A DNA stretch of 50,485 bases, from NCBI GenBank assembly GCA_020847715.1, contig JADLBM010000006.1:1-50485 (forward strand). Direction: 5' to 3'. The position numbers were made by a program, and so were the translations under genes. Positions 33,800 through 40,713 of this stretch are shown here, piece after piece. The notes beneath the pieces are model-generated. The model was not told the origin of the DNA, made no database searches, and was given only the letters and a program-made list of their open reading frames with translations. Source of the DNA: Candidatus Yanofskyibacteriota bacterium. GTDB lineage: Bacteria; Patescibacteriota; Minisyncoccia; 2-02-FULL-40-12; GWA2-44-9. Within the stretch, counting starts at the first letter, position 1; the number at the start of each line of letters is the position of its first letter.

Positions 33800-34153
33800 G
33801 GGGATGATCGGTTTCGACACTGCATCATGCTCGCGCGATGCCATACGCGGTCGACCGGGACTAACCGCGCTAAACACCGGTCATACATATAACTGGCTAT
33901 TCCAACGCCAATTACGCGTTCGCCTAAGGGCGTCGCGCATCACACCCTGACGCCTGCTACGGGATCCTGTGGTGTCATCTAGCTCGCTCTAGCTGACCGT
34001 TCGCGTTTCACGGTCCGCCGAAACATTGAAACGCTAGTGCACGGTGCTTTTGACGGTTCTCTAGCCGTGCGCGAACTACCAAACCGTCTACTGTGGTAGT
34101 ACATCGTGCCGGGTATCGTAGTGGACGCGAGTTCGATTCTCGCCATCTCCACA
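33800..34153 (+). ncRNA. ssrA: Transfer-messenger RNA (tmRNA)
   Basis: 5' GGGGATGATCGGTTTCGAC, 3' GACGCGAGTTCGATTCTCGCCATCTCCACA; ORF ending ACT GGC TAT TCC AAC GCC AAT TAC GCG TTC GCC TAA (...TGYSNANYAFA*). Confidence 0.95.
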
Positions 34154-35849: not shown

Positions 35850-36296
35850 TCACTCCTCGTAAGTGCCGCGCTCTTTGGAGCGCTGAACATCTTTCTTCTT
35901 GATGGCTTCTCGCTTATCGTATTTCTTCTTTCCGCGAGCGACGCCAATCTCAAGTTTAACGAGTTTTCGCTTTGCGTAGAGGCGGATCGGCACCAGGGTG
36001 ATGCCGTGGGCTTGTGCGAGTCCAATGAGGCCGGCGGTTTGCTGCTTGCTCAAGAGGAGCTTTCGGTCGGAGCGCTCCTGATATTCTTTTGGTGTGTTAC
36101 CCGGCTGGTATGGTGGAACGGATGCGCCGATGAGCCAAGGAGTCCCGTTAAGGATTTTTACATACGCCCCCTTAATGCTCGCGTGCCCAGCCTTGATGCT
36201 TTTCACTTCTGGTCCGGTCAGCACAATACCGGCCTCGACGGTTTCGAGGATGTCGTAGTCAAAGCGGGCGCGGGGATTGGTGGCCAGGTCTGCCAT
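35850..36296 (-). CDS. smpB: SsrA-binding protein
   Basis: NPRARFDYDILETVEAGIVLTGPEVKSIKAGHASIKGAYVKI...RKLLLSKQQ...KKYDKREAIKKKD. Confidence 0.96.
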   Translation of the reverse strand: MADLATNPRARFDYDILETVEAGIVLTGPEVKSIKAGHASIKGAYVKILNGTPWLIGASVPPYQPGNTPKEYQERSDRKLLLSKQQTAGLIGLAQAHGITLVPIRLYAKRKLVKLEIGVARGKKKYDKREAIKKKDVQRSKERGTYEE

Positions 36297-36302
36297 GGGT
36301 TG

Positions 36303-37346
36303 CTAGGTGCGCTCCTGGAGCGTGACGCGGCACTCTTGCGATGAACCGCCGCGCAGGTAGGTGAGGGTGACCGTGTCTCCGACGCCGTGCTTTTGGAGCA
36401 GGTCGGTGAGGTCGCTGCCAGCGGTGAGTTCGGTGCCATCGAGGTGGGTGATGATGTCGTGCTCCTGAAGTCCGGCGCGGTGTGCGGGGGAATCGGCAAG
36501 CACTGCGGCGGCTCCCGGTCGGTGATCGCGGATGACCATCGCCCCGTGGTCGCAGGGAAGTGTGTAGCGTTTTGCGAGATCGGGTGTGAGCATGACGTAC
36601 ATAAGCCCGAGATACGGCTTGATGATGCGTCCATGCTCGACGATATCGGTGAGGTCGCTCTTCGCCCAATTGATGGGAAGCGCGAATCCGATGTTCTGTG
36701 CGCCGAAGATCACAGCGGTATTGATGCCGACCACCTTTCCCTCGAGGTTGATCAATGGTCCGCCGGAGTTTCCCTGGTTGATGGCGACATCGGTTTGGAT
36801 GACACCGCGGAGCTGTTCCATGTGCGCTTCGGCGGATCCGCCCAGCGATGCGCTGATGCTGCGGGCGAGGCCGGACACGATGCCCTTGCTGACCGAGTTA
36901 CTGAAGAGACCGAGCGCGTTGCCGATAGCGATGACGGTTTGACCCAGTTCGATACCCGATGAATCGGCGAGCTCGACATGCGGAAGATCCTTCGCGTCGA
37001 CTTTCAAGACCGCGATGTCGTTGATCGGGTCGCGCGAAAGCACTTTCGCGGAGTGTTCGCTGCCGTCATTCATGACCACGGCGTATTCCGCTTCCGCATC
37101 GAATACCACATGCTTGTTGGTGAGGATGAGGCCATTCGGGTGCGCAATAAAACCCGAGCCGCCGCCAACGGTGACTTTTTGCCCGGCCCCATCTTCCACG
37201 CCACCCATCATGAACGGGTTGAAGAGTTGGGATGGGTTGATGTCGTGCATACGCGGCAGGTACTTGCTAACCACGATACTGACGACCGCGGGCGATACTT
37301 TTTTTACGGCATCGATAGTGAGTTTGTCGTAGGTGTGTGCGTCCAT
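36303..37346 (-). CDS. HtrA/DegP-type trypsin-like serine protease with PDZ
   Basis: GSGFIAHPNGLILTNKHVV, DPINDIAVLKVD, TDVAINQGNSGGPLINLEGKVVGIN, PDZ AHRAGLQEHDIITHLDG. Confidence 0.95.
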   Translation of the reverse strand: MDAHTYDKLTIDAVKKVSPAVVSIVVSKYLPRMHDINPSQLFNPFMMGGVEDGAGQKVTVGGGSGFIAHPNGLILTNKHVVFDAEAEYAVVMNDGSEHSAKVLSRDPINDIAVLKVDAKDLPHVELADSSGIELGQTVIAIGNALGLFSNSVSKGIVSGLARSISASLGGSAEAHMEQLRGVIQTDVAINQGNSGGPLINLEGKVVGINTAVIFGAQNIGFALPINWAKSDLTDIVEHGRIIKPYLGLMYVMLTPDLAKRYTLPCDHGAMVIRDHRPGAAAVLADSPAHRAGLQEHDIITHLDGTELTAGSDLTDLLQKHGVGDTVTLTYLRGGSSQECRVTLQERT

Positions 37347-37458
37347 GCGCTCCATCATACTCGTACGGGACAAAATGAGAAGCGGGAGGCTCTTTACACG
37401 GGCGCGCACATTCTATACCGTATGCGCCAACAGTACGTTGAAAACGAGGGAGAAAAGT

Positions 37459-38274
37459 ATGCATCGCGACCTGGTCGAGCGGATCGTCCGCATGAGCGTC
37501 CCGCAAAAGCCGGAGCCATTGGCGCGTGCAACCCCGCATGGACGGATGTCCGTCCAGCGTCACGCGCGCCGAAGGAGCTCTACGACCATCATCGGCCTGC
37601 GATATGCCGATGGTATTCTGTGCGTTGCCGATCGTAAGATGAGCGGGTACTGGTTCCGCATCATGTCGATGGATTTCCAGAAGATCTACACCGTCTCTCC
37701 TATCAGTGTACTGATGGGATCGGGGTCGGTCGTTTCGCTGCAGCAAGCCGAACGGTATGTTCGGCGGACCGCTAAGCAGTTCCTTATGCAGGCAAAGGTC
37801 CCCATGAGTACCGAGGGGCAGGCCGCCCTGCTTGCCGAATGGTGCGAGCTGCAGTTCATGTGGCTTGGTGAGTGGTTCTCGTTCTTCGGCATTCTTGCTG
37901 GCTTCGATACCGATGGCACCTCGCACTTGTATGCCATCGAGCAGGACGGTTGCAAGATCGAAGAGGCGCAATACTACGCAACCGGGTCCGGTGGATTCGA
38001 AGCGACGGCCGTACTCGACCAGCGATGGGAGAAGGACATGAACCTGGCCCATGCGCTTCACATCGGCGTGGACGCCCAATACCAGGCGGGTTGCCGGGAT
38101 TCCGGATCATCCGACGTACGACTTGCTATTCCGTCTGCCGCAGCGATCACCAAGGACGGCGTTCAGCCCATCAGCGAAGCCTATGTGCTCCAGGCGCTTG
38201 CGAGCGTACTTGCGCTGAAGCCGAGCAAGCCGCTGAAAACTGCGCTCGCGCTCGCTGTCGCGGGTCTCTCGTGA
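37459..38274 (+). CDS. 20S proteasome beta-type subunit-like Ntn peptidase
   Basis: Propeptide ...ARRRSS|TTIIGLRYADGILCVADRK (Thr1, Asp17), QKIY Lys, ILAGFDTDGTSHLYAIEQDGCKIEEAQYYATGSGGFEA, DSGSSDVRLAIP. Confidence 0.82.
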   Translation: MHRDLVERIVRMSVPQKPEPLARATPHGRMSVQRHARRRSSTTIIGLRYADGILCVADRKMSGYWFRIMSMDFQKIYTVSPISVLMGSGSVVSLQQAERYVRRTAKQFLMQAKVPMSTEGQAALLAEWCELQFMWLGEWFSFFGILAGFDTDGTSHLYAIEQDGCKIEEAQYYATGSGGFEATAVLDQRWEKDMNLAHALHIGVDAQYQAGCRDSGSSDVRLAIPSAAAITKDGVQPISEAYVLQALASVLALKPSKPLKTALALAVAGLS

Positions 38275-38285
38275 GGGGGTGAGGT

Positions 38286-38975
38286 GTGACCGACGCAAAA
38301 AAGAAGAAGCCGATCCCGAAGAAGCCGAAGAGCACGGCGCTTGATGCGTTCAACGCGAAGGACGCGGAGGCGCGGAAGCGTCTCGCGGGGATCTTCGTAG
38401 CGTTTGTGAAGCTTCCCGCCTCTCGCGCCAAGAAGGTTCGCGGGTTCATCTTCAGCGGATACAACAACAGCGAAGAGGCAAAAACGTACGACGGGCGGAA
38501 CTTCGAGGCACATATCATCGGGTCTCCGGTCATGCAGGTCGATGAGGTGGAGACCATGCTCAAGACGCTCGGCTTTCTCTGGGAAACTCGAGTGTCAACG
38601 AAGGACTACCACTCCTACAGTGGGCGATTGGCGTTGACGAGTATCAACCAGGCAACCATCGAGTCCTCGCAGTTCCCTCGGGCTTCTGCGGTCGAAGCGA
38701 TCTTCCTCGACAAACGGACCACGAACGCCGAAGTTCAGCGAGCGCTGTACACCGGGGAGTTCTTCACGGCTCCGCTCCACGCGGGGGCGCCCAGAGTCTT
38801 TCTCTGTGGGTGCTACGATCCAGCGCGGCGGCGCGAAGTCGAGAGTATCCTGAACGGCCTGCTTCGCCGCAAGGTGAGTGCGAGCGGTCTCCGTGCGGTC
38901 GTGCGGAAGCTCCGAAAGGCCGCAGGGGTGCGTCGGGTTGTGCACCAGAGCGTCCCTATTCGTTTTTCTTCATGA
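38286..38975 (+). CDS. Hypothetical protein encoded directly after the proteasome-like gene
   Basis: GTG start 12 bp after the upstream stop; 229 aa, Lys-rich N terminus; no family recognised. Confidence 0.7.
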   Translation: MTDAKKKKPIPKKPKSTALDAFNAKDAEARKRLAGIFVAFVKLPASRAKKVRGFIFSGYNNSEEAKTYDGRNFEAHIIGSPVMQVDEVETMLKTLGFLWETRVSTKDYHSYSGRLALTSINQATIESSQFPRASAVEAIFLDKRTTNAEVQRALYTGEFFTAPLHAGAPRVFLCGCYDPARRREVESILNGLLRRKVSASGLRAVVRKLRKAAGVRRVVHQSVPIRFSS

Positions 38976-39030: not shown

Positions 39031-40713
39031 ATGTTTCGCCAATGGCTCCACGATACGCTCGCGCGCCTGTACCCTGGGCACCTTTTTGATGTGCTCGTGC
39101 CTCCCGACGCGGCAATGGGTGATTATTCTACGAACATCGCGTTCGTAGCGGCGAAGGCCGCAAAGAAAAACCCGCGCGACGTTGCGCAGGAGATATGCAG
39201 TGCGTTGATGCACGAGGGCAGTGATATGCTCGAGCGATGCGAGGTCGCCGGGCCGGGGTTCGTGAATGTGTTTTTGAAAGAGGCTTACCTGCAGCATCAG
39301 TTGAACGATGCGGGTATTCCGAATCTCGGGCAGGGTTCGCGGGTGATCGTTGAGTATTCGTCGCCGAACATTGCGAAACCAATGCACATTGGCCACCTCC
39401 GCTCGACGATCATCGGCGATGCGCTTGCCAACGTGTATGGGGTGCTGGGGTACGAGGTGATTCGGTGGAATTTTATTGGCGACTGGGGAACACAGTTTGG
39501 CAAACTCATCGCCGCATACAAGCGCTGGAAAGACGACGAAGCCCTTCGGGCACACCCCATCGGCGAAATGCTTCGGCTGTATGTGAAGTTCCACGATGAG
39601 ATGAAGACAAATCCGGAGCTTGAGCGTGAGGGGCAGGAGGAGTTCCGGAAGCTCGAAGAAGGCGACGCGGAAAATAGGGATATCTGGATGCGATTCCGAG
39701 AGCTTTCACTCGGCGAGTTCGATCGCATGTATGACCGCCTGCACATTGGGCTCACGGGCGCGGTCGTTCACGGAGAAAGCGATTATGAGGCGGAGCTGAA
39801 GCCGCTTATTGAGCGACTCACCGCGCAGGGCCTCACAACGGAATCCGAAGGGGCATTGATCGTCGATCTTACGGCGGAAGGTCTCGTGCCGGCACTGTTG
39901 CGCAAATCCGACGGGGCAACGCTGTACCTTACGCGCGACCTTGCAAGTCTCGAGGACCGCATAAAGGAATATACACCGGCCAAGATCCTCTATGTGGTCG
40001 CGAATCAGCAGGCGCTTCATTTCGAGCAGTTGTTTGCGGTGAAGGATCGGCTCAGGCTTGGCTCAACGGAAACGGTGCATGTGAAATTTGGCATGGTACT
40101 CGGCGAGGACGGGAAGAAGCTGGCGACCCGCGAGGGCAAAGTCATCGCGCTGGAGGAGGTGCTCGATGAGGCGGTGCGACGGGCTGCCGATGTGGTGAAG
40201 GGAAAGAACCCCGAGCTTGCCGATAGCGATGTTCAGCGAATTGCGAATACAGTTGCGGTGGGAGCACTCAAATACAACGATCTACGCCAGCATCCGCATA
40301 GCGATATCGTGTTCGACTGGGATGCCATGCTCGATCTGGGGGGCAACTCCGGGCCATATCTGCAGTACGCGTATGCGCGCCTTTCCGGCATTCTGCGGAA
40401 TGCAGGGGATGTCGCGGATGTCGTCGGGGATCGATCGCTTCTGGCGCATCCGACGGAGCGGGCGCTCCTGCGCCACCTGCTGGACTTTGGATATGCGGTC
40501 GCGCAGTGCGCGCATCTCTACGCGCTCAACGGTCTCGCGTTGTATCTGTATCAGCTCGCTGAACTGGCGAATCGCTACTATGAGCAGGTGCGCATCAACG
40601 ACGACGACAATGAAGCGCGAAAAGCGGCGCGCCTTGCACTGGTGCGCACGGTGATGGAGCGACTCAAAACAGGTCTCGCATTGCTCGGCATGGAAGCATT
40701 GGAGCGCATCTAG
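39031..40713 (+). CDS. argS: Arginyl-tRNA synthetase
   Basis: VEYSSPNIAKPMHIGHLRSTIIGDALANVY, GDWGTQFGKLI, KFGMVLGEDGKKLATREGKVI. Confidence 0.97.
   Translation: MFRQWLHDTLARLYPGHLFDVLVPPDAAMGDYSTNIAFVAAKAAKKNPRDVAQEICSALMHEGSDMLERCEVAGPGFVNVFLKEAYLQHQLNDAGIPNLGQGSRVIVEYSSPNIAKPMHIGHLRSTIIGDALANVYGVLGYEVIRWNFIGDWGTQFGKLIAAYKRWKDDEALRAHPIGEMLRLYVKFHDEMKTNPELEREGQEEFRKLEEGDAENRDIWMRFRELSLGEFDRMYDRLHIGLTGAVVHGESDYEAELKPLIERLTAQGLTTESEGALIVDLTAEGLVPALLRKSDGATLYLTRDLASLEDRIKEYTPAKILYVVANQQALHFEQLFAVKDRLRLGSTETVHVKFGMVLGEDGKKLATREGKVIALEEVLDEAVRRAADVVKGKNPELADSDVQRIANTVAVGALKYNDLRQHPHSDIVFDWDAMLDLGGNSGPYLQYAYARLSGILRNAGDVADVVGDRSLLAHPTERALLRHLLDFGYAVAQCAHLYALNGLALYLYQLAELANRYYEQVRINDDDNEARKAARLALVRTVMERLKTGLALLGMEALERI

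Follow-up and report, generated by a model that had tools for sequence, protein, structure and literature searches.

The gene at 37459-38274 of the window (the whole stretch of 50,485 nucleotides analysed here) probably encodes the proteolytic subunit of a stand-alone, two-gene proteasome of the 20S type which, judging from sequence comparison, would likely work uncapped and tag-less. Its partner, at 38286-38975, is assigned to a family of divergent alpha-like subunits (henceforth referred to as alpha'). Bacterial proteasomes are usually tied to Pup and an ATPase. Proteasomes or pupylation enzymes of bacteria have been described from Actinobacteria, Nitrospirae, Armatimonadetes, Verrucomicrobia and a few others (PMC5666114, PMC7947786), and the literature that we searched contained no description of a proteasome in Parcubacteria/CPR; subscription papers, including the UBact reports, lay outside that search and we therefore claim no priority. 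The source genome (G000, class Paceibacteria) comprises 687 kb in 26 contigs and is 94.17% complete.

A reading of the window from its sequence alone (henceforth the sequence-only reading) had named a proteasome beta-like peptidase at 37459-38274, and this assignment held. The forward-strand open reading frame starts with the ATG at 37459, with GAGGGAGAAAAGT just 5' of the start, encodes 271 amino acids and matches PF00227 at 4.3e-25 (88.9 bits, where the curated cut-off is 22.4). Since it was the only PF00227 match of the whole genome in a genome-wide profile search (6.6e-26), the match stands far above chance. Among solved structures, the closest are beta subunits from archaea and eukaryotes, the best archaeal one being 6he5 (2.5e-12). 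Among the NCBIfam models, the archaeal beta model TIGR03634 gave 93.4 bits and the actinobacterial/bacterial beta model TIGR03690 gave 61.9 bits; as both scores miss the equivalog cut-offs (224 and 191.9, respectively), the window beta is a divergent homologue and a member of neither equivalog. No HslV model was found among its NCBIfam matches with E up to 1, and no Anbu model either, although NCBIfam may not hold one. A search of genome contigs with the single window sequence found no relatives and the same search with a three-sequence beta alignment found five loci, the nearest named relatives being Candidatus Paceibacterota bacterium Gw_Eff_bin_126 (L042) and Candidatus Yanofskybacteria nzgw416 (L043); the viral contigs searched contained none.

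Fourteen relatives of the window beta from its class were aligned with it; in these 15 sequences T42 (Thr1), G52, D58 (Asp17), K75 (Lys33), G89 (Gly47) and G176/G178 of the GSG motif are invariant, and the Thr1, Asp17 and GSG landmarks picked out by the sequence-only reading are thereby borne out. The lysine had been described as one residue off Lys33: the offset is there, but it results from a one-residue insertion, and K75 itself is invariant in all 15 sequences. Alignment to mature beta subunits beginning at Thr1 predicts a propeptide of 41 residues (37459-37581), in which Ser41 is the last residue before Thr42. Position -1 is occupied by Gly, Ser, Asn or Lys among the relatives, so that Gly is usual but not fixed; the Ser of the window protein is atypical for self-processing and counts against our preferred explanation. 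Overall, these comparisons confirm at the sequence level a genuine 20S-type beta subunit, with its predicted catalytic residues complete, in a reduced genome.

The gene had also been called an orphan, which the analysis does not support, and the sequence-only reading was mistaken in seeing no alpha subunit in the window. A forward-strand gene at 38286-38975, which starts with GTG 11 bases past the beta stop, encodes a protein of 229 amino acids without the catalytic Thr and Lys, and it escaped notice because it is highly divergent: by itself it has no Pfam match and no direct match in the PDB. At the level of its family, a search with PF00227 at E up to 1 picks out 9 of the 15 members (best 2.6e-11), and the family profile retrieves mycobacterial and rhodococcal PrcA first from the PDB (5.8e-15), well ahead of eukaryotic and archaeal alphas. 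When the window alpha' was removed from the profile it still ranked first among the 307 open reading frames of the window (2.3e-18), as it did with its whole genus left out (1.4e-10); a profile without any member of its taxonomic family missed it, and recovered the G003 copy at 9.8e-12 and the G019 copy at 5.9e-7 among 2240 open reading frames. By hhalign, the set from the window's family aligned with a set from two other families of the same order (probability 94.5, E 8e-8) and the latter aligned with the alphas of Pup clusters (probability 97.5, E 9e-12), while negative controls (unrelated neighbour proteins and reversed sequences) reached at most 2.3. A small alpha' profile (A1) aligned with Pup-type alphas at a probability of 96.5. 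Used by itself, A1 retrieved no proteasome from the PDB, nor did the profile of Pup-type alphas by itself reach the window alpha'; the case for homology therefore passes through these intermediates, by which 38286-38975 is placed in a predicted alpha-like family with stepwise homology to PrcA.

Fold prediction was run on alpha' and was suggestive for a homologue only. The AlphaFold models of alpha', built from only three alpha' sequences, had a pLDDT of about 40. The order of elements in these low-confidence models (a helix, two strand pairs, two long helices, a strand region and two helices) fits that expected of an alpha subunit, and a fold search with the window model was uninformative. With the Yanofskybacteria homologue of alpha', proteasome subunits, many of them alpha, made up 47 of the 50 best matches in the PDB; none was significant alone (E at least 0.07), and we take this result as corroboration only.

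The sequence-only reading had seen no Mpa/ARC ATPase, Pup or PafA gene in the window and had advised a search of the rest of the genome. Genome-wide, neither a PF03136 protein (Pup ligase/depupylase) nor an ARC-like AAA protein was found in G000. Profile searches detected no PF03136 protein in G000, G001, G003 or G019, of which G001 belongs to the same genus and is 100% complete; the profile is matched in 12 of 143 related genomes, at 1e-76 to 1e-124. The AAA proteins of G000, named from their translations, are FtsH, RuvB, DnaX, DnaA and ComM, with no Mpa/ARC-type or PAN-type ATPase among them; as the genome is 94% complete, an ATPase or Pup gene may have been missed. ClpP is absent from G000, and ClpX, ClpB and HslU were not found in it, AAA_2 matching only below cut-off at the DnaX locus. 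A C-terminal stretch of Lon lies on contig C9, and the idea of FtsH as the only AAA+ protease was rejected on this account. In the relatives with stand-alone pairs, FtsH is present and Lon is found in most; the AAA proteins inspected there included no ARC.

The lack of a detected Pup ligase or Mpa/ARC makes an uncapped particle the most likely arrangement. The beta subunit would be made as a precursor with its 41-residue propeptide, and self-cleavage between Ser41 and Thr42 on assembly would free Thr1; the full conservation of Thr1, Asp17 and Lys33 suggests that these residues hydrolyse peptide bonds. Alpha', presumably catalytically dead and related to alpha subunits through the profile chain, may form the outer gating rings of an alpha'-beta-beta-alpha' chamber, in which unfolded or damaged proteins and peptides would be degraded without ATP, beside Lon, FtsH and HtrA. 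ATP-independent 20S activity has precedent (PMC6466877, PMC8223512, PMC8665760). We regard it as unlikely, though the least so of the alternatives, that the alpha'/beta core is instead served by an unrecognised activator or unfoldase, such as a divergent ARC, an ATPase-less Bpa-like ring or Lon/FtsH. It speaks for this alternative that mycobacterial 20S cores are gated and work with regulators, the ATP-independent Bpa among them, whose genes lie apart from those of the core (PMC6466877, PMC8223512), and that in Pup-linked relatives within the class an ARC ATPase is still encoded next to the proteasome core. However, there is no ARC-like AAA protein in G000 or among those inspected in the stand-alone relatives, and FtsH and Lon have protease domains of their own; Bpa (PF10759) had no match in seven genomes, a result that is not decisive because the search control was silent too.

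The distribution of alpha' bears on whether beta acts alone. The alpha' profile has matches in 15 of 143 related genomes, all of which also contain beta, and three genomes have a PF00227 protein but no alpha' match; the hypergeometric probability of this co-occurrence (1e-17) overstates the association, the same loci having served to train the profile. Five extra pairs outside the training set (L066, L067, L068, L071 and L077) show the same beta-alpha' arrangement. In nearly all window-type loci a gene of about 205-295 codons directly follows beta, and in most of them it overlaps beta by a few bases. It is rather improbable, in our view, that beta forms a homo-oligomeric peptidase like HslV, BPH or Anbu and that the downstream gene is unrelated or a non-structural accessory. 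Such an arrangement would account for the lack of a Pfam match to the window alpha', for an AlphaFold model that could not be interpreted and for the other PF00227 proteins of the class without an alpha' match, yet it has to contend with the stepwise profile links from alpha' to PrcA, whose controls were clean, with alpha' occurring only where beta is, and with the lack of HslU in G000; moreover, neither a 41-residue propeptide nor an alpha partner has been reported for HslV, BPH or Anbu (PMC8665760). Separately, four loci (L069, L070, L072 and L073) represent another PF00227 group of the class, which starts with MTL(V/T)I and has no propeptide, and no alpha' match was found within the locus sequence examined.

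The two-gene core thus remains our preferred explanation, and its surroundings are conserved. Upstream and in divergent orientation (reverse strand, longest open reading frame 36303-37409) lies a gene for an HtrA-like trypsin-fold protease, which is also the neighbour in G001, G003, G019 and G031; downstream on the forward strand lies argS (arginyl-tRNA synthetase, 39031-40713), as it does in these four genomes and in G039 and G041, all assignments being read from translations. The tmRNA partner SmpB (35850-36296, reverse strand) is likewise a neighbour in several related loci. The neighbourhood HtrA-beta-alpha'-argS therefore recurs in several genera, with beta/alpha' upstream of argS in G000, G001, G003, G019, G031, G039 and G041 and, where the contig reaches, a gene for HtrA, SmpB or 3-methyladenine glycosylase on the other flank. 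That the pair is a decaying and unused, if still readable, remnant of a lost Pup-proteasome would agree with the missing Pup genes, the strong divergence of alpha' and the patchy distribution, but it is very improbable, since decay would not have left both reading frames intact across several genera, at 22-34% identity, nor have preserved each catalytic column and the neighbourhood. In G041 (L059, 9921-10568) and G031 (L061, 10000-10770) a divergent ClpP-like gene lies between alpha' and argS. A tmRNA gene at 33800-34152 of the window, with the predicted tag peptide GYSNANYAFA, lies near SmpB, HtrA and the beta/alpha' pair, and these genes together possibly form a protein quality-control neighbourhood.

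The sequence-only reading had expected bacterial proteasomes to be patchy, and so they are here: PF00227 proteins were detected in 18 of the 143 relatives and, across the class, in 29 of the 384 genomes sampled. In six genomes (G009, G032, G037, G087, G114 and G141) the beta/alpha genes are accompanied by an ARC ATPase and by Pup ligases, and ARC proteins have the proteasomal OB domains PF17758/PF16450. Further stand-alone pairs are found elsewhere in the class, in G147, G188, G248 and G284, the last of which has two alpha/beta pairs (L079 and L080): one is stand-alone, and the other has in its vicinity a Pup ligase as well as a Pup-like open reading frame ending in GGE. The beta tree unites the window's family (support 100/99), and it neither establishes nor rejects one clade comprising the stand-alone pairs (AU p 0.21). 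The Pup clusters share with the window homologous beta and alpha genes in identical order, and differ in having ARC, Pup ligases and Pup-like open reading frames beside the core. The window locus looks like a pared-down relative of these clusters, and both loss and a separate lineage are possible histories.

Among known systems, the window resembles the actinobacterial PrcB/PrcA pairs of Mycobacterium and Rhodococcus in having a beta gene with a long propeptide followed by an adjoining alpha gene; the class beta profile has its top match in Rhodococcus PrcB (1.9e-43), and the alpha' profile in PrcA. In contrast to the actinobacterial system, the window genome has no detected Pup ligase (PafA/Dop) or Mpa/ARC, its alpha' lies under Pfam detection and residue -1 of its beta is Ser. 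The archaeal 20S proteasome has an identical catalytic set, and the single window beta scores highest on the archaeal beta model; however, its 93.4 bits are far under the equivalog cut-off, it has the 41-residue propeptide, the alpha' family is nearer to PrcA than to archaeal alpha and no PAN-type ATPase was seen. OGZ26396.1 (PMI-3), one representative among the homologues listed by Fuchs et al. 2021 (PMC8665760), may derive from a candidate-phylum genome, to judge from its accession. HslV, BPH, Anbu and the 22 further homologues of Fuchs et al. 2021 are bacterial members of the same Ntn family as the window beta, and for many of them no dedicated AAA+ partner is known (PMC8665760). The homologues of Fuchs et al. 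are described as single genes without informative genomic context, whereas the window holds a two-subunit pair, a comparison made by description (PMC8665760).

Importantly, a two-gene core without Pup ligase or ATPase, in a class that also has full Pup clusters, offers a natural test of the role of uncapped 20S particles, and the presence of stand-alone and Pup-linked loci in one class, with both in G284, allows a test of the way in which the Pup system was acquired or lost. Alpha subunits can diverge so far that standard annotation no longer recognises them, so 'orphan' beta genes of reduced genomes should be re-read together with their neighbours. More tentatively, and with rather less confidence than in the core itself, we suggest that a free-standing alpha'/beta core, tag-less and ATPase-less, persists in candidate-phylum lineages, either as a successor to the Pup system or without any tie to it, and, the order being without canonical ClpP, could serve, Lon aside, as the chief soluble chambered protease.

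Canonical ClpP, which almost all remaining Paceibacteria have (E about 1e-80), is missing across the window's order (G000-G044), which has only divergent ClpP-like genes (best 4.5e-31), with none in G000. The notion that the proteasome replaces ClpP was rejected, as most genomes of the order are without both beta and canonical ClpP. Six further loci, L053-L058 (in G076, G101, G061, G065, G052 and G092), contain genes of Pup-ligase type in genomes without any PF00227 protein; as in Corynebacterium, pupylation may operate there although no proteasome core is present. Four Pup-ligase matches are present in G101, several of the six loci also contain ARC and Pup-like open reading frames, and the Pup-like protein of L056 (G065, no core detected) matches PF05639 at 3.7e-19.
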